From: Baffinella frigidus | Lineage: Eukaryota > Cryptophyceae > Cryptomonadales > Baffinellaceae | Length of the DNA: 27,292 bases | Assembly: GCA_026770585.1 (NCBI GenBank) | Contig: MU646460.1 | Coordinates: forward strand, 467,443 to 494,734 | Direction of reading: 5' to 3' | Shown here: one piece after another, positions 3,001-26,126 of the stretch | Numbering within the stretch: the stretch's first letter is position 1 | Layout: each line of letters starts with the position of its first letter | The notes under the pieces: generated by a model | The model's input: the letters and a program-made list of their open reading frames with translations, nothing else | What the model was told of the DNA's origin: nothing | The model's database searches: none | Program-made: the position numbers and the translations under genes

Positions 3001-6000
3001 CCTCCTACCGTAGGCCGAGGGATCCTAGGACCAACAAGTCTCGGCCTACGGTAGGAGGTCCCTAGGCAATGCCGTAGGCCTAACAACCCCATTTTTAGGC
3101 CGTTAGCCTATGAGATTGAAGCGACGCCGTTATTTGACTCCGGCGCGTTTCAGCACTCGAGTGCAAACCCCGGACCGCCACACGCGGATGCTAGAGGGGC
3201 CTATTTAAAATCGAATATGTAGAGTCTTTACTACACAAAAACCCAAATTTGTACCAGGATAAGGTAGAAGTAACCTCGCGCCTGGTATAATTTTTACCGG
3301 GCACGAGGGTACTTTATCTTATCCTGGTACAAAGGTTTGCAACCCCATATTTAAATAGGCTCCTCCAGCATTCTCGAGTGGCGTGGCCTTTGTCCACAAT
3401 CTACAAGTGAGCACGTCAATCCTCTTTTAGAGGATGTGTACCCGGAATTGGTCACGTTACGCCACCACAGGTCATCAGTCAGAATTTCAGAACGCAACGT
3501 TTCATTTCGTGGTACGAAATGAGTGTGCGGTCCCACGTGACACGCAACTCCTCGTCCTTTCCACCTCCGACTTGTGACTCCGAATTTCGGATCCGGGTAC
3601 AAAATTCAAAACAAGACTTGTATCTGGAATTCCGACCAATGTTCTGGCGTGGCACGCTCAAACCGTGGGCAAAGTTGACCCTAAAGGTCAACTTTTGTCC
3701 TTTAGGTCCTTTAGGTTTCAATTTCGCCCAACATAGCCCAACGACACGCTCTTCCGTTGAAAGGACTGCAGAGAAAGCATTTTTGCAACGTGGCCAGCTC
3801 TTGCACAAACTTGGGCGCACACGTAAATCTGATGTTGCAACAAAGGGAACCCCTCTGTTGTCAGGCGGTAGGAGGTGGAGTTAGAACCCATCCGGAAAAT
3901 GCTCGTATGAGCGGCCGACACGGGGAACAGTAAGTGGCACAATGCGTCGAGCATGTGCGGCGTTGACGCTGGTTGTTTGGCAATAAATTATCAATCTCTC
4001 TGGTCTTCATGTGAGGAGACCGGAAGTTGATTCTTATGTTTTGTGTTACAAATTCGTCGACTGTTGGCGTGAAATTATCATAATTAATAATCAATAAATT
4101 ATGAATCTCTCTTGGCAGGCGTTCAAGTACGGGACGTACTCCAAGGTCTCGGAGCTGATCCGCTTCGAGAATCGCCTCAACAGGTTTCTGCCCCGCCTTC
4201 TAACATCATTCTGTTCATAGGCCAACGCACTGAAAACCGGGTAGTTAAGCCTAAGGTATTGCCTACGGTAGGCCTTAGGGGCTTAGTGGGGGTCCTATGA
4301 AGCATTAGGTCCTAGGGGCCTACGGCCTACCGTAGGCAATGCCGTAGGCCTCACTACCCGGTTTTCAGGACGTTACCCTATTAATGTATGAAACATTGCG
4401 ATGCAGTGAGAGCTTATATGTGGTGTGTGTGTCGTGTGTCCGTGTTGGATTACTGGGGAATATCCGCAAGGCTCGTAGTCTTTCGGATCACTCAATTTCA
4501 GGTCTGTGAGGCCGCGCCCGGCCACTCGAGGCTACAAGTGTGACTATTTTAAAACAGGGATTCGTTGACAAGTAAAGAGGAAAAAAGAGGTGTGTAGTAA
4601 TTTTCACACAAATGGGGGCGTTTGGTCACGTTGCGGGCGGAATTCCGCCCGCAACGTGACCACGCCTGCCCGTGACTGGTACTGAATTTAACAATCCCAC
4701 ATTTAAAATAGTCTCATTTCTAGCCTCGAGTGGGGAGGCGAACCGGTCCACAAAATCGAGAGACGGAAATCTGTCTTCTTTGAAATGGATCCATTTCGTA
4801 TAACGGAATCGGTAAACAAACGGATGTCAACTTGTTCCGGGCGCGCTGGTAATGAAGAAAGAAGGAGAAGGAGCATACAGGATAACAATGTTGTGATTCC
4901 ACAATGTAACAATGCTGCGTCCCTGAGGCGGGGCCGTTTCTTAAGGCTCATAGACTTTTGTATCACTCAACTCAAGGCTCAAGGGCCTGATTTAGGACCT
5001 GTGTCGAGAGTAATAAAGAAGAAGAAGAAGCTGCGTCCCCTCAACAGGTAGGGGGTGGAGTGAGAATCCATCCGGAAAACGCTCGTATGAGCGGCCGACA
5101 CGGGGTACAGCAATGGCACAACACGTCGAGCATGTGCGACACTGACGCTAACTGTCTGGCAATAAATCATCAATCTTTCCCCTCAACAGCAAGGGAGACG
5201 GGGCATAACAATGTCGTTATTCCACAATGTAACAATGTTGCGCCCCCCTCGCTAGAGGGTTCTCGAACCTGAGGATGCGTGCCGCCCTGCAGTCGTACAG
5301 TAGGCCGATGCCTAGTGCTCATCCGGGAACATGTTCGGCAATAAATCATCAACCCCCCCCCCCTCACAGCTCGCTGCAGCTCGCGTCGGCGCGGGGGGAC
5401 CTCGTCGCCCTCGCGCTCCTCGAAAACCTCGCGACCCCCGCGGACGCCAAGGCCTTCATGCTCTCCATGGGCGGCCTCCCGTGCTTCTTCGTCTCGGCGG
5501 ACGCGGCGGATAAGCTTGCTGACAACCGCGACCACACGGTCGAGGTCACGTGCGACTCGATGGACGTCCCCACGGCGGCCGAGCGGGAGCCTGCGCGCGC
5601 GGCCGAGCTGCGCCTCCAGGCGCAAATCTCCGCGGCGGGCCCGTACGTCCTCGCGGCCACGCTCGGAGCCGCGACCCCCGCCGAGGTGCCCAGAGAGATC
5701 CCTAAACCCTCAACACCAAATCCAACCCTACACCCTACACCCTAGAGAGATTGATAATTTATTGTCAAACAACCAGCGACAGCGCCGCACATGCTACACA
5801 TTGTGCCACTGCTGTACCCCGTGTCGGCCGCTCACACGAGCATTTTCCGGATGGATTCTACCTCCACCTCCTACCACCCACAAAATGACACCACGTGTTG
5901 TGGATCAGTTCGATTCGCAACTGAATTTGTGGTTGGTGACGTTACTGAATGAATTTGTGGTTGGTAACCAACTGAATTTGTGGTTGGTGACTCCACCTCC

Positions 6001-9000
6001 TACAGGTGCCCAGCCGCCCAGAGCTGGTCACGTTGCTCCACGACCTCCTCGCCCGTGTCGGGTGGATCTCCGAAGGACCTGGAGGCACCGTGGCGCTGCT
6101 CAAGGTGAGAGAGCCCTCATCCGGGGACATGTTTGATGTAAACGAAAATGGACTATCAAACCGGATTATGGCCCGCATTGAATTTACTTAGGGCCCTATT
6201 TAACCGTCGTCTAACTCCTATGAACACATAGGGGTCCATTATCTTTTAAATTAAGCATATCCCCGGATTATCCCCCCCTCAGACTGTTGGCCCGCCTCCT
6301 CCTCCTCCTCCTCCTCCTCCTCCTCCTCCAGGGGATGTCATGTGGAGCAGCGGAATGTGAGAGCGTCCCCCGCACTAGAGAGATTGGTAATTTGATTGTT
6401 ACCCGCCCCTTGCCTCCACTGGGGGCTGCTGCTCCTGCGTGTGCCTCTGCCCTGCACACGCGCGTGATCACGGAGCGCTCTGATGACAGAATGCTGACAT
6501 GGCATCGCGGAATGTGAGGGCGTCCCCCGCACTAGAGAGGCTGATAATTTATTGCGACACAACCAGCGTCAGCGCCGCACATGCTCGACGCATTGTGCCA
6601 CTACTGTACCCCGTGTCGGCCGCTCCTACGAGCATTTCCCGGATGGATTTCAACTCCACCTCCTACGTCCCCCGCACTACCCAACCACAGCTGTCTCTCT
6701 GCCCGAATCAGCCACCCCCCCCCGGCTCACAACCCTTCCGCGTGACTCAAGCAAGCTGCGGGAAACCACTGGCAGGTTCTTCCCCCGGGGCCGTCCCCGG
6801 TGAACCCCGCCGGGGGGGCGGTGCGCGTCTACTCGGACGGGGTGCAGCCCGATTCGTACCTGTGCAGGCTGTCGTGGGCCGCCTGCCTTCTCCTTGCGCT
6901 CCTTGGCCTGCGAGTTGACCAGGTCTTCGGAAACCCGAAACCCGAAACCCGAAACCCGAAACCCGAGACCCGAAATTCGAAACCCGAGACCCGAGACCCG
7001 AAACCCAAAACCCGAAACCCGAAACCCGAAACCCGAAACCCGCAACCCGAAACCCGAAACCCGAAACCAATTTATTCTGGCCCCCACGCTCCCTAAACCC
7101 CAAACCCTAAACCCTAAACCCTAAACCCTAAGCCCTAAGCCCTAAACCCTAAACCCTAAACTCTAAACCCGAAACCTTAAACCCTAAACCCAAACCCTCA
7201 ACCCCAAACCCTGGAACCAGTTGCCGCCGAGAGTCCCCCTGACGTTGAACCGTTGACTAGTTTGAGCTGTTTATGTGGGCACGAGCGTGACTTCCTTTGT
7301 TTAGGGTTTCGGGTTGAGGGCTTTGCACACCTGGCCAGAGACGACGCCCTCTCCTGGACACGGCTGCCCACCCGCGACCCCCTCCTCACGAGCCTCTGCA
7401 CTGGAGAGCTAAAGGCGATCCGAAAGCAAAAATGCTTTCTCTGCAGTCCTTTCTACGGAAGGGCGTGTCGTTGGGCTATGTTGGGCGAAATTAAAACCTA
7501 AAGGACCTAACGGACCCGGGCCTACCTGATGTTCACAAAATACGCGATATGGCAGCTGTGCTGAGGAGGGGGGGTGACCTGCAGTTCACAAAACATGATA
7601 TGGGAGGTGTGTGCAGGGGAGCCACTCGAGAATGCTAGAGGGGCCTATTTACATGTGGGGTTGTAAATATTTGTACCAGGATAAGGTAAAGTAACCTCCT
7701 GACTGTGCAATTTGAGCAGAGTCACGTGACTATTCAACGAAAGTTACTACACAAATGCCCTCTTTTAAAAGCACATCGGTTCTAAATAGGCCCCTCTAGC
7801 ATCCTCGTGTGGAGGGGCCTACACGGTCTCTTCACAAATCCGCGATGCGGCTGACGTCCTGAAACATAACCCCTGCACCCGAAACCCCGAGCCCGAAACC
7901 CGAAACCCGGAACCAGGTGTGCGCGGGGGAGGGGGCGGAAACCACCACGACAGCAGGTGGCTCCTAAACCACAAACCATACCCCCCAAACCCTAAACCAC
8001 AAACCATAACCCCCAAACCCCAAACCCTAAACCAGAACCCCCAAACCCTCAACCATAAACCATAAACCATAAACCATAAAACCCGACACCGAAACCCCAA
8101 CCCTCACACCTGACCCCTAAACCCTACACCCTCCACCGCAACCCCTACAGGCGCAGCGGAGCTAGCGGCGAAACTCGGCGAGGTGCTGCTGGAGCTGAAC
8201 CGGGAGGTAGCGCGCGTGTGGCGCATGCCGGGCAAGGAGGGGGGCGGCGCGGAGGCGGTAGACCCGAACCCCGAAACCAAGAGAGAGAAGCCCAGGCAGT
8301 GCCATGCGCCCTCGTAGGCACGGGGCCGTCCGCTGCAAGGTGGCGGCCCCATCACCATTGGGGCGAAGCTCCCGAAACGGGTGAGTCTTGGAACAAGGTT
8401 AAGTTAACTGGGCGACTACTTTAGACGTTGTCTGGAAACTCGGCGAGGTGCTGCTGGAGCTGAACCGGGAGGTTGCGCGAGTGTGGCGCATGCCGGGCAA
8501 GGAGGGGGGAGGCGCGGAGGCGGTAGACCGGAAACCCGAAACCCGAAACCCGAGACCCGAGACCCGAAACGCGAAACGCGAAACGCGAAACGAGAAGCCC
8601 GAAACCCGAAACCCGAAACCCGAAACCCGAGACCCGAAACGCGAAACGCGAAACGCGAAACGCGAAACGCGAAACGAGAAGCCCGAAACCCGAAACCCGA
8701 AACCCGAGACCCGAGACCCGAAACGCGAAACGCGAAACGCGAAACGAGAAGCCCGAAACCCGAAACCCGAAACCCGAGACCCGAGACCCGAGACCCGAAA
8801 CCCGAAACCCGAAACCCGAAACCCGAGACCCGAGACCCGAAACCCGAAACCCGAAACCCGAAACCCGAGACCCGAGACCCGAGACCCGAAACCCGAAACC
8901 CGAAACCCGAAACCCGAGCGAAGCCCTGACCCCGAATCGCAAAAGCAGGACCGGGGCGGGGCGCTGTCGGGAGTGGAGTTGAGCGAGGGGGTCGGAGGGC

Positions 9001-12000
9001 TTTTCGCGTGGGCGGTGCGAAACCCTACACCCTAGACCCTACACCCCAACACCCTAAACACTGAGCGAAACCCAACACCCCAACACCCTGAACCCTGAGC
9101 CACGAACCCTAACCCCCAAACCATGGTTCAGGTGCGGCCGCTTGCGTGGGCGGGGCTTTGCCTGCCGGCATGGGGGGGGGGGCTCGGAGGGGTCAAGAAG
9201 CCTGCGACACCAGCTGGGCAGGTGTACCCCGAACCCCGAACCCAGAACCCAGAACCCAGAACCCAGAACCCGGAACCCCGAACTCCAAGTCCTGAGTCGT
9301 GTCCGGCAGGTGTACAGTGGACCTGCCCTAACACATACCCGTCGGGGCCGGACGGATTGAGTATGTGTGGAGGGTAGGTATGCGTTATGGTGTCCACCCT
9401 TCAGGCATACTTCCTTGCAGGGGAAAATCGGGGGCCGGCCGGAGGAGTATGTGTGGAGGGTAAGTATGTGTTACGGTAGCCTGTGTTAGGGTAGGTGGAC
9501 TGTACTGACGCGGCATGTTTCCTGTCCGGCGCATGTTCATAGGATAAATGACTAAAAGTGGGGTAGTTAGGCCTACGGTATTGACTACGGTAGGCCGTAG
9601 AGGCCTAAGGGGGCTCCTACGAAAAACCCTACGGCCTACCGTAGGTAATACCGTAGGCCCAAGTGCCCCATTTTTAGTCCGTTACCCTATTAATGTGTTG
9701 CAGCTATTGCCAGCCCCGAGGCGGGTGCTTTGGACGCCGTTAACTCCGTTTTGTAGAAATGGGCTCCGCGCGGAATCAAGGCCAGGTCAGGAGATCAGGA
9801 AAATTGATAAAACGTCGAGAATGAACTTTTGTCAGGTCAGGAGATCAGGAAATTTGATAAAAACGTCGAGAATGAACTTTTATGCTATCTTAGGCATGGG
9901 CAAGATACCTAAAATAGAACCAAAACCCCGCAACATGTCACAAAATGGGGGAAATCATTTTTTTGGTGTTCCTGACCTCCTTACCTGACGTTCTAAAATT
10001 CCCCGCGGAGGCCATTTCTACGATAATTCCGATTCATGAATGAGGATTGTCGATGTCAGCCCGTGCCGTCCCCAAGCAAGGTGCTTTGGTGCTTTGGTGC
10101 TTTGGTGCTTTGGTGCTTTGTATGACACTCACATCGAAGGCCACGCCCACCTCACTCTTGAGGAGATGGGAACAAACCCCAAGCAAGGACCGGGGCTGTC
10201 TTGCGCAGAGAGATTGATAATTTATTGCCAAACAACCAGCGTCAGCGCCGCACATGCTCGACGCATTGTGCCACTACTGTACCCCGTGTCGGCCGCTCAT
10301 ACGAGCATTTTCCGGATGGGTTCTAGCTCCACCTCCTACGTCCCCCGCACTAACCAACCACAGCTGTCTTGCGCATTCAACGATGAGCAGAGGACGCCGC
10401 CCGCTGTGGTGCAGGGGGCCGCTCCCCGCAGATGTTTGAGGGATAGTTGGTTTCTCTTCTCGACCAGGGATAGTAGGTTTCTCTACTGGACCCACCCTGG
10501 TGAAACCCGCATTGGAGCCGAAACTCCGGGGATCAACAGGAGGCCTAGATACCTGAACCCACCCTGGAAAAACAGAGAGATTGATAATTGATTGCCAAAC
10601 AACAAGCGTCAGCGCCGCACATGCTCCGCATTGTGCCACTACTGTACCCCGTGTCGGCCGCTCATACGAGCATTTTTCGGATGGATTCAAACTCCACCTC
10701 CTACCCTGGAAAAACACACGCATTGGCGCCGAAGCTCCGCGATTGAATCACCAGGAGGCCCAGAGACCCCTTCAGCCTATCCCTCCCTTGAACTCAGATG
10801 GTGCTTTAGATGAGTTCCCGCCCCAGTTAAAGTTAATAACTTTCACAAAGTTAACTTGTGCGCGGCTGACAGTCGTGGGGAGTTCCAGAAACTAATCACC
10901 GTACAAGGATGGTTTATCTGCCTTTTGAAAATTCCTGCGCAGTTGGATCATACCACTAATAGTAAAGCATTTATGATGTAAATCGTTGCCCCCAAAGCGA
11001 TAAATCAATACTGTTGCGGAGATGAAAACGAGGGTGGTGTGTGGCAGGCGCTGCTAGAGAGATCGATAATTTATTGCCAAGCAACCAGCGTCAGCGCCGC
11101 ACATGCTCGACGCATTGTGCCACTTACTGTACCCCGTGTCGGCCGCTCATACGAGCATTTTCCGGGATGGATTCTAACTCCACCTCCTACACTGGCAGGC
11201 GCTACTAGCTGAGGCGAAGACGGCTGTGAGCGACGTGCGGAAGGGCATGGCCGAGGCGGTAGCCGCAAGCCTCCGGATGACCAAGGTGTGCCAAAGGAAG
11301 CAGGGCCTTTCTACAGAACAATTTCCGGTGTCCGCCTATGTTGGGAGCTCGAAGAACCTAAAGGACCTAAAGGGCCAGAGAATAGTTCGTTGAAGCCGTC
11401 ATGACCACACCTCATAGTTTTCATCTGGTGGTGTTGCACTTGAGGGTGCGCGGTTCAACGTTCTAGACCTAAACCAGGGTCGGGGGTTTAGGGTTTCGCA
11501 CTATACACGCCATCAGCCCTCCGACCCTCTCACTCAACTCCACCCCCGACAGCGCCCCGCCCCGCCCCTGGTCAAATGTCAAACTGGTCAAATTCACTTA
11601 GCGGTGGTCAAATGCACTTAGCGCCCCACCCGCACTCTTCGGGACCCCCGCGAAGTTCATAGGGTAACGGCCTGGAAATGGGGTAGTTAGGCCTACGGCA
11701 TTGCCTAGGACCTCCTACCGTAGGCCGAGGGATCCTAGGACCAAAACGTCTCGGCCTACGGTAGGAGGTCCTAGGCAATGCCGTATGCCTAACTACCCCA
11801 TTTTCAGGCCGTTACTCTATTAAAGTCTCAAGTCCCCGAGCGAGACAAGCCATCTCCCTCTCTTTTCATCAGTCGCGATACGAGAAACTGCCCTCCCTCT
11901 CTCCTGGGGGTGATGAGGCGCACGGTGCCTAGGGTGGCTACTGGGCACTAATCCGGGGACATGTTTAATTTAAAAGGAGATGGATCCCCATGTGTTCATA

Positions 12001-22100: not shown

Positions 22101-25100
22101 GTGCAGATCACCTGCGCGCGCGGAGTGTGAGCCTCGGTCGGACAGGTGATGAGCCACGATGGTTGACTAACGAAGGTATCTTAGATCTCGCTGGGCCGGC
22201 GCGGCCTCTCTCCTCCTAAGCGGGGTCTCACAGAGCGCGAGAGAGAGTTTTTGAGGGGCGTACCGAGGGGACCGACGCAAAGAGGTTGTCGGCGAGGAGG
22301 AGGCGCGAGAGGAGGCGGCAGTTGGAGATCGAGGCGTGCATCGAGGTGATGCGGTTGTGCGACAGGTCCAGCGTCAGCAGCTCGCCGCAGTTGCCTGGTG
22401 GTGAGCACGGCTGTGAGAAAGGGGGGGGGGGGGATGCGCGGAAAAATGCTGTGCCGGGTCCAGCAAGGGCAGCTCGCCGCAGTTGCCTGCCGTCAGATCG
22501 ATGCACGCGTGAGGAGATGTTCTGTTTGCGAGGAAAGGAATCTCATATGAAAACGGTTTTAATTGAAAACCGGGGGAATCAATAAAAATTACTACACACA
22601 TGCTTTAATATTACTAAAAAAGATCATGCTGTGTAGTAAATTTTATTGCCCAGCAGTTTTAAATTAAAACCGCTTTCACTTGAAATCGGGGCAGGCGCCT
22701 GGTGGTGAGCACGGTTGTGAGAAAGGGGGGAGAGGAGGGGGGGGATGCTGAGAGGGAGCGTCAGCAGCTGGGAGTTGCCTGGTTGTGAACACGACTGTGA
22801 TGACACATTGGAGAGCAATGGCACCGTGGGGAGATGAGCGTATCACTCAACTCAAGGCTCAAAGGCTTCATTTAGGACCTGTGTCGAGAGTACTAAAGAA
22901 GAAGAGAAGGGGGGATGCAGCGGGGTTGAGTTGCAACCACGCACTGACTGGCCTCATCGGGCAGCGGCGGGAGGAGGGCATCGGCGAGGGCAGCTGCAGG
23001 GGGGGGACCGATTGACCCCCCCGGAAGATCACGCAAAGGAGTGTACATCTACGTTCCAGCATACAAAAGAGTCCTCACCGATGGCGATCGGGAAGCGGGG
23101 TTGAGCTGCAACCACGCACTGACTGGCCTCATCTTGTGAACACGACTGTGAGGACACTTGGGAGAGCAACAGCATCGTGGGATGCAGCGGGATGAGCTGC
23201 AACCACGCACTGAATGAACTAGAAAAGGCTGCAGTTTCGGGGCCCTTGATTGGCCATCAATTGATAGTCAAACAAGAGGCTCGAAACTGCCCCCTTTTCT
23301 AACGAGAGTGGCCTCATCGGGCAGCGGCGGGAGGCGGGCGGGGGAGGGGGCAGCTTTATCCGGGGAAACCAATTTTTCTTTCATTTGATGGCAACGAAAA
23401 CCACTACACAATTCGTTCTACACAATTCGTTCTTATTAGGAATATCAAAGAATTTGTGTAGTACTTTTGATTGCCATCAAATGAAAGAAAAATAGGTTTC
23501 TCCGGATAAAGCTGCTGGGGGGGGACCGATGGCAGGGTGGAGGAAGGAGAGAGCGTTGTTGTCGAGGAGCAGGTCGCGCAGTCCCGGCATCGACCCGATC
23601 CCCGGCGGCACTGCGCGAGGGGGCCGCGCCGTTAATTTAATTAATGGACAGGCGCGAGATTGCATGAAACGTACGACGTCGGCCACAAACTTAACGGAGG
23701 TGAAAGCGCTCTGATCCCCGCGGATCGGGTGACCAAGTTCATCTCGGAAGATAACTGAATCAGTTCCTTTTCAATAGGAGGTTGAATAGGAGAAATTAGT
23801 TAGGGCGTAGTAAATTTAATTAGGCTTCCTAATCAAACGAAAAAGCTCATTACGGAACTGATTCAGTAATCTCTCGAGATGAAAGTCCTCCAGGAAATCG
23901 GACATCGCCGACGTGCTACAAATCGGCTAATTTTGCTGCAAATCGGCTGATTTCCCTACAAATCGGCCGATTTTGCTGCAAATCGGCTGATTTTTGAAAG
24001 AAGGGTTGGAACCCCTCAAGTGGGGCGAGGCGGGCGCGCACTTCGGGTCTGGGGATCTCATCCGGACGAGTATTTATGATAAATACGCACCGGCAACGAA
24101 GTTTACTACACAAATGCTTTAATAATTACTAGTACGATTCATGTGTGTAGTAAATTTCGTTACCGTGGCGTATTTATCATAAAAACTCACCGCGATGAGA
24201 TCAGAGATGCGGGTATGGGGTTTACCTTGGGTGAGGCGGTTGTTGGAGGCCTTGAAGTGGATGAGCGAGACGCACCCTCCGATCGCGCCGGGCAGCTCCG
24301 ACAGCCGGTTCGCTGACAGGTCCAGCGTTGTCACCTGCAGCCAGGAGACACGTCCACCGTCACTGCTACTGAAAAGCCCCACCCCACCTTATCCGGTAAC
24401 CGCGGACAGATTCCGTCCGCGACGGCTCCAATTCCCACAACTTTAGGGGGTCATTAAAATCATTTTAGACCCCAAAGTTAACATATTTTACCCAACAGCC
24501 GACTATTAAACCCAAATTCGTTTTAAAACGTTGAGATGGACAGGGCGGGGTGAAGCTTTTCAGTAGTGAGCAGACACGGCCAGCGTTGCCGCCTGCTTAC
24601 CGCCATCGAAGTGAATTCTTGATCGGTCATCCGCATGGATTGTTGTTCGGTCATCCCGAATGAATAATTGTTCGGCCATCCGAATGGTTATTCGGTCATC
24701 CGAATGAAACCAGGGCTTCCACCGCCCCACCGCCAATCTCATCCGGACGAGTATTTTCCGAAAATACGACTTTAAAAGTATTTTCAACGAAAATTACTAC
24801 ACAATGTGCCTGTACTTTTAAAAATGGTCTCGTCCGTGTAGTAATTTTCGTTGCAAATCGGATCGGAGGTCCCCGAAATCGTATTTTCGGAAAATACTCG
24901 CCGCGATTAAATCAGGTGATTTGAAGTGGTGTGTTGCGGCGCGGGGCGCGCACCGAGCTGTCCGGTTTTGGTTTCGGTTCAGGGGATTCGGGTTTGCTGT
25001 CCATGACTGAACACGCTTGGGCATGTGATTGCACAGAAATCCGGGTTCCGGGCTTCGGAGAGCGCCGGCTTCTGGGGTTCGGGGTTGCACCGAGTTGAGC

Positions 25101-26126
25101 GCGCCGATCTCAGGCGGGATCGTGAGCATGTTGTTCCGCTGGAGGTGCAGCTCGGTGAGCTTCATCATCTTGCCGATGTCCGGGGAGAGGTTCGCGATGC
25201 GGTTGTCTTTGAGCGTCAGCCGCTGCAGGTCCTGCAGCTCCAGCACCTGTTGGGGGACACGACAGGGTGTCAGACACCGCCAGGTCGTAACTCGGAATTT
25301 CAGCTGCAAGTTTTTTTAATTATAAATTGTACCCGGATCCGAAGTTTTGTATTCGGATCGGACGTGGAAAGGACGAGGAGCTGCCTCTCACGTGGGACCG
25401 CATACTGATTTAGTACCAAGAAACGAACCGTTGCGTGCTGAAATTCCGCGATGCGGTTGTCTTTGAGCGTCAGCCGCTGCAGGTCCTGCAGCTTCAGCAC
25501 CTGTTCGGGGACAAGACAGGGTGTCAGACACCGCGAGTGCGTCATCCAGCGTTTGGATCTTGCTCCGAAAATTTCACCTCGAAATCGCCAAAATCGCCCC
25601 TAGGGAAAATTTATGAATTAAAACTGTTTGCGTATGATATTCCTGAGACACGGTAACGACACCGCGAGTGGTGTTCTTGAGTGCAGGACACACTCGATAC
25701 AGTGCAGGACTCACCCGAGACCGGGACACGGCACGAGCCACGTCCCAGAAATCTGGGGATACTACTACCCCGTGTAGGATGGCCGAAGTGACTTTGGGTA
25801 GTATCCCCAGAGAAAAGGTCGCGAACTTAATGGGGTAACTGCCTGAAAATGGGGTAGTTAGGCCTACGGCAATGGGGTAGTTAGGCCTACGGCCTAGGAC
25901 CTCCTACCGTAGGCCGAGACTTTTTGGTCCTAGGATCCCTCGGCCTACGGTAGGAGGTCCTAGGCAATGCCGTATGCCTAACTACCCCATTTTCAGGCCG
26001 TTAGCCTATGAAACTGGAGCCATTCAGAAAGCAACTGAGTGTGTCCCCACCTCGACGTGAGGAGATAGCATGCGGTCTCTGCCTCTGCCTCTGCGGAAGC
26101 TCATCCTATCCATGGACAGCCTCCCG

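Follow-up and report, generated by a model that had tools for sequence, protein, structure and literature searches.

We identified a predicted intron of the NAA25 gene (the NatB auxiliary subunit gene) that appears to consist of one mobile element lying between its own target-site duplications. The intron lies at positions 5686-6005 of a GC-rich stretch of 27,292 nucleotides (nt) of the Baffinella frigidus genome (C158:467443-494734; contig MU646460.1), which is referred to here as the window; NAA25 is on its plus strand, and coordinates are given on that strand unless stated otherwise. Most probably, a short repeat, referred to as family I, inserted in antisense orientation into a coding exon of NAA25 after moving through an RNA copy, and we give this reading a probability of about 0.73. 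A preliminary description of the window had noticed the element in the intron and had not identified a mechanism; the copies of the family point to a retroposon.

The intron is bounded by an exact 10-nt repeat, AGGTGCCCAG, at 5684-5693 and 6004-6013, as the preliminary description had stated. The two copies are interpreted as the target-site duplication of the insertion, the left copy supplying the donor AG/GT and the right copy the acceptor AG/GT, and this assignment, also proposed earlier, is the best reading of the repeat, the reading frame and the duplications found throughout the family. The predicted GT...AG intron is 320 nt long, which is not a multiple of three. Its excision joins ...LGAATPAE and VPSRPELVTLLHDLL... 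in frame, in agreement with the junction TPAE-VPSRPELVTLLHDLL that had been predicted, and its retention gives stops in the NAA25 frame. The element reaches both splice boundaries, and 5686-6005 holds duplication, element and nested inserts only, so the earlier view of a family I element with nested inserts was correct. The first 8 nt of the antisense element (AGAGAGAT, 5692-5699) are cut off by a later, telomere-like insert of 44 nt with CCCTAAA repeats (5700-5743), which is bounded by an 8-nt duplication of AGAGAGAT, the same 8 nt being found again at 5744-5751. Stretches resembling this insert are common, with 103 matches in the sequence examined (the window and the loci fetched from the assembly). 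The body of the element follows on the minus strand (5744-5874, 94% identity to a first-draft consensus). Behind it lies a second insert of 116 nt (5875-5990) with copies of a 23-nt repeat, bounded by a 13-nt duplication of CTCCACCTCCTAC (5862-5874 and 5991-6003); no second match to this insert was found in the sequence examined. The duplicated element end CTCCACCTCCTAC at 5991-6003 is pyrimidine-rich and lies immediately 5' of the acceptor AG. The left repeat and the element share one AG, which closes the repeat and opens the element (AGAGAGAT), and the length of the target duplication is therefore given as 8-10 nt.

The upstream exon (5370-5685), which ends in ...CCCGCCGAG, has a strong coding score (51.9 for 5371-5685) and is part of a concatenation of predicted exons that matches the Pfam family NatB_MDM20 (2.2e-31) and the structure of human NAA25 (PDB 7stx and 6vp9, about 1.5e-26). 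The downstream exon (6006-6104, VPSRPELVTLLHDLLARVGWISEGPGGTVALLK) is open in frame, has a moderate coding score and ends in AAG/GTGAGA. The 20 kilobases (kb) 5' of the window read N, so that the number 6 given to this intron in the preliminary description is provisional.

Family I is a repeat of about 133 base pairs (bp), of which the window contains 10 full copies. In the assembly (382 Mb, 1364 contigs), searches gave 1734 to 1807 first-look candidates, 40 of which were scored per search; none was found in viral contigs. For the duplication analysis, 78 matches from the window and the fetched loci were read, of which 76 are near full length. A target duplication with a score of at least 7 flanks 45 of these 76; among 1503 shuffled flank pairs, one reached this score. 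By strict measurement the duplication is 8-14 nt long in 44 of the 45 copies (20 nt in the remaining one) and 9-13 nt in 42, with a median of 11. The consensus has the ends GTAGGAGG and TCTCTCT, and the element is short, non-autonomous and dispersed, with defined ends between which direct reading shows no inverted-repeat relationship. The junctions are asymmetric. With the element written as GTAGGAGG...TCTCTCT, additional bases separate the GTAGG end from its duplication in 24 of 45 copies and the CT end in 5. T is the first base of the duplication in 33 of the 45, a G stands before it in 27, and G and T occur jointly at the insertion point in 22, compared to a background of 6.9%. Of the 33 copies that lack a near duplication, five have a perfect duplication of 13-16 nt beyond a 5' extension of the element (controls 2 of 249). 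Four of these extension duplications reach at least 14 nt, against none in the controls, and the mirror test on the 3' side of the same 33 copies gave a single case. One of the five, a copy in the window (10207-10363, minus strand), has a 5' extension of 23-24 nt that matches the 5' flank of the copy at 6534-6666, and its 13-nt duplication is seen only when the extension is counted.

The 3' end of the element is shared with other repeats. AATAAA followed by TCTCTC was found as a 3' end at 10 sites outside family I, compared to 0-1 for letter permutations of AATAAA. Reverse-transcriptase domains are present in 20 of 22 candidates, and one frame (L071) matches the structures of R2 and LINE-1 ORF2, showing that a reverse transcriptase of the long interspersed element (LINE) type is encoded in the genome. 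Reverse transcriptases of this type lie in very long frames at L071, L073 and L075-L079, with lengths of at least 833, 767, 783, 600 and 599 codons, the frames running out of the fetched stretches without a stop. The duplications, asymmetric junctions, 5' extensions, shared tail and LINE-type reverse transcriptase are typical of retroposons that move by target-primed reverse transcription, and family I appears to behave like a retroposon similar to short interspersed elements (SINEs). A B-box-like GTTAGAATC was noticed by eye. The family is kept apart from the SINEs here, since a known small-RNA head (of the type transcribed by RNA polymerase III) was not recognised. A second retroposon-like repeat, ending in AATAAA(GAA)n, was seen by eye at approximately 4924-5037 and 22846-22920, the first copy being flanked by ctgcgtccc.

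Mutator-type DNA transposons make duplications of about 9-11 nt, and the family I duplications, centred on 10-12 nt, overlap this range. Family I might therefore consist of non-autonomous DNA transposons, of the Mutator type for instance, in which inverted repeats are not visible, and the intron would then be the product of an ordinary DNA-transposon introner. According to the accessible part of a survey of introners, duplications are found in 19 of 40 non-ascomycete introner families without inverted repeats, and DNA transposition is favoured for most families (PMC9860276). We nevertheless consider this explanation unlikely, as the excess of extra bases at one junction, the 5' extensions and the shared AATAAA and CT tail argue against it, as do ends that are not mutually inverted.

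A number of observations weigh against the insertion of a retroposon that is spliced out as an intron. Regarding the family, 31 of the 76 near-full-length copies are below the duplication threshold, and the core copy of the NAA25 intron (5744-5874) is itself among them when its edges are taken without the nested inserts. The sampled copies are high-scoring matches, which favours young copies, and 35,016 of 217,352 bases in the fetched loci L010-L047 read N. The shuffled controls of the near-duplication and 5'-extension tests do not model local duplication. Some of the 5'-extension cases may be local duplications, because direct duplications unrelated to family I are common here; the most doubtful is L021, with an extension of 359 nt and a truncated copy. 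In the tail test, the score of AATAAA (10) was also reached by 4 of 300 random hexamers. The 3' end of a helper LINE was sought and not reached within the fetched stretches. No relationship to tRNA, 5S or 7SL was found, the 10 copies in the window being free of Rfam matches at E<=1. Regarding the gene, NAA25 homology stops short of the junction, reaching residue 211 of the 306 in the query; a query spanning the junction region matched no relative, the downstream exon being without homology. Its 99 nt have a coding score of 6.6, the best of six frames, a value that 765 of 54386 windows of equal size also attain, and the exon belonged to the training set of the coding score. The donor GAG/GTGCCC fits the usual consensus GTRAGT weakly. 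An element-free allele was not found in the same assembly, where the exon is single-copy (1 match from 1 candidate).

The points concerning the gene also bear on the explanation that the stretch is not spliced, either because a recent insertion broke NAA25 in this strain or because the downstream sequence is not an exon. This would fit the weak support for the downstream exon. We regard it as quite unlikely. The core copy differs by 5.3% from the majority consensus and ranks 68th of 76, compared to a sampled median of 1.5%, so that the NAA25 insertion is not among the youngest, and it has received two later inserts. The exon edges still join in frame after this time, and the downstream open reading frame (ORF) remains open to AAG/GTGAGA.

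Whether family I copies lie at other splice sites was asked genome-wide. The antisense element end occurs with AGGT within 0-3 nt at 35 places (control 0), 13 of them without spacer, including the NAA25 copy. Of the other 34 places, 21 were fetched: 11 have a duplication holding AGGT, three lack an intact opposite end, one has a duplication without AGGT and six have no clear duplication. Two of the 21 (C18 and C932) adjoin coding sequence in a geometry like that of NAA25. At C18:1338448-1338945, ...CLNYILREEAGSNRK joins VWSNGRMDCDRDGN... in frame over a 361-nt stretch with two family I copies (candidate junction 1338532/1338894), and AGGTGTGGAGC is found at three places; no homolog was found (best E 1). 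At C932:20600-21330, ...VLSQAHRQ joins VSDNYRKIRNTLRYIIGNLH, and a match to isoleucyl-tRNA synthetase spans the junction (1ffy, 1.3e-4); a Pfam scan gave nothing convincing. At C932 the part upstream is short, with a weak coding signal, and the start of the exon is found once more further 5', so that the copy may equally well have inserted at an acceptor that was already there. In a coding scan, only L010, L042, L045 and the NAA25 copy have a coding-scored stretch at most 60 nt away, with the left exon alone being called for NAA25, and the sampled copies give no sign of exon targeting by family I. At L045:615-746, a family I copy starts straight after the CAG/GT that ends a predicted minus-strand exon. 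This 5' splice site, CAG/GT followed by AGAGAG, is suggestive but lacks a duplication. The preliminary description used the term introner. One mobile element between its own duplications is the best reading in NAA25, and the family is real elsewhere, but most sampled copies look noncoding, so that the term describes what some copies do and not a speciality of the family.

Insertions at existing splice sites do seem to happen. The copy at 11056-11190 (minus strand) has a computed 16-nt target duplication (one mismatch) that spans a predicted NAA25 acceptor, tgGCAG/GCGCTACTAG, identified by direct reading, and the C932 copy may be similar. That the element entered a pre-existing intron or splice site at 5686-6005 as well is improbable, as between the duplication copies there is only the element with inserts flanked by its pieces, and the left copy is joined to strongly coding sequence. 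Two isolated family I 3' tails in sense orientation were found by a tail scan, at 4090-4112 abutting the NAA25 acceptor tggCAG/GCGTTCAAG and at 5337-5359 abutting the acceptor of the exon that starts at 5370, cctcaCAG/CTCGCTG. They are the only two in 245 kb (shuffled-pattern mean 0.15), and each may have started out as a newly made intron or have inserted at an acceptor already present. The intron could also have arisen before the element arrived, by simple tandem duplication of exon sequence with AGGT or by break repair that added filler. This would be in line with the direct duplications around inserts in the window (at least 12 pairs of 21-102 nt, several at exon ends), but is very improbable, since the duplicated unit has the length expected of family I target duplications and sits exactly at the element ends.

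The insertion of a family I retroposon can be pictured as follows. The element of about 133 bp, with a sense strand running from GTAGGAGGTGGAG to CAATAAATTATCAATCTCTCT, would most likely move as RNA, by target-primed reverse transcription that begins with a nick in one strand, preferentially between G and T. The CT-ending 3' tail of the RNA would prime copying at the nick; a second cut about 11 nt away would give the flanking duplication. The duplicated NAA25 stretch would have contained AG/GT, with the left copy becoming the donor and the AG of the right copy the acceptor. As AG/GT is in both copies of the duplication, splicing out the interval would restore the old reading. The antisense element end GGATTCTAACTCCACCTCCTAC offers a branch-point-like CTAAC and a pyrimidine-rich stretch just 5' of the AG, and would need only the AG from the duplication to act as a 3' splice site. 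The C932 copy keeps GGATTCTAACTCCACCTCCTAC intact. In the copy within 5686-6005, CTAAC is changed to CTACC, and a later-inserted GGTGAC precedes the repeated CTCCACCTCCTAC.

As a tentative extension, for which the probability is clearly lower, both ends of the family I retroposon might suit splicing, so that it would make introns in either orientation without targeting exons. In antisense orientation the element would bring CTAAC and a pyrimidine stretch without AG, and any duplication holding AG/GT would complete an intron. In sense orientation it would bring the GTAGGAG start and the CT-tract end, and any duplication ending in AG would be sufficient. Copying of RNA with duplications of about 11 nt can land anywhere, and introns could therefore be gained without exon targeting. 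Old copies would persist as splice-site remnants, of which the two tails at NAA25 acceptors are possible examples.

The window contains other repeats and a second gene. A leucine-rich-repeat gene was recognised by eye from translations of the minus strand. The direct duplications mentioned above are 94-100% identical, many lying at exon ends of both genes, and include 132-193/308-369, 2232-2266/2317-2351, 8170-8271/8435-8536, 12932-13029/13238-13335, 21469-21528/21751-21810 and 25193-25280/25447-25534. They flank inserts such as foldback elements, telomere-like repeats and GA tracts, and form a further class of target duplication, longer than that of family I, in which splice sites are copied as well. 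Long palindromic repeats (GGGTAACGGCCTGAAAATGGGGTAGTTAGGCC...) are found at 3001-3110, 4220-4385, 9540-9695, 11655-11825 and 25815-26015, and yield false microRNA-type Rfam matches below threshold.

The origin of new spliceosomal introns is a long-standing question, and the best-described mass producers of introns are DNA transposons. If the proposed origin of the NAA25 intron is correct, the creation of introns needs no dedicated introner, only duplications of about 10 nt that hold AG/GT and an element end that can be read as a 3' splice site. Among exonic insertions, the survivors should then be those with AG/GT inside the duplication. The following comparisons are limited to the accessible parts of the cited papers. 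The introners of Micromonas, Aureococcus, Symbiodinium, Florenciella and other organisms are repeat families that make introns, as is proposed for family I (PMC9860276). In these introners duplications of 3-9 bp and inverted repeats are usual and DNA transposition is favoured, whereas family I has duplications of 8-14 nt, extra bases on one side and a retroposon-like tail. In a Florenciella example, neither splice site is carried by the element and both come from the insertion site (PMC9860276, Gozashti et al., 2022), which is also the arrangement predicted for the NAA25 intron. Judged by its sequence, family I does not look like the terminal-inverted-repeat DNA transposons of the best-known introners. 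The introner elements of Amoebophrya form repeated introns that are bordered by direct repeats, as here, but differ in having inverted repeats of 8-20 nt, direct repeats of 3-5 nt and noncanonical splice sites (PMC7789003). In the AGGT-duplication model of intron gain (cited in PMC2394776), a duplicated AG/GT gives both splice sites, as in the NAA25 intron; the NAA25 repeat, of about 10 nt, differs in being a target-site duplication left by a mobile element. Also on record are an intron made by a SINE in rice catalase A and four introns made by Alu elements in human 3' untranslated regions, in which, as proposed here, a short retroposon in an exon was turned into an intron (PMC2394776). These cases are single or untranslated, whereas family I has at least one predicted coding case and two candidates. 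A SINE-type introner family was not found in the openly readable part of the literature searched. Single introns made by SINEs are known; a family-scale retroposon introner would be new, and would place a retroposon route to introns beside those of DNA transposons and reverse splicing.

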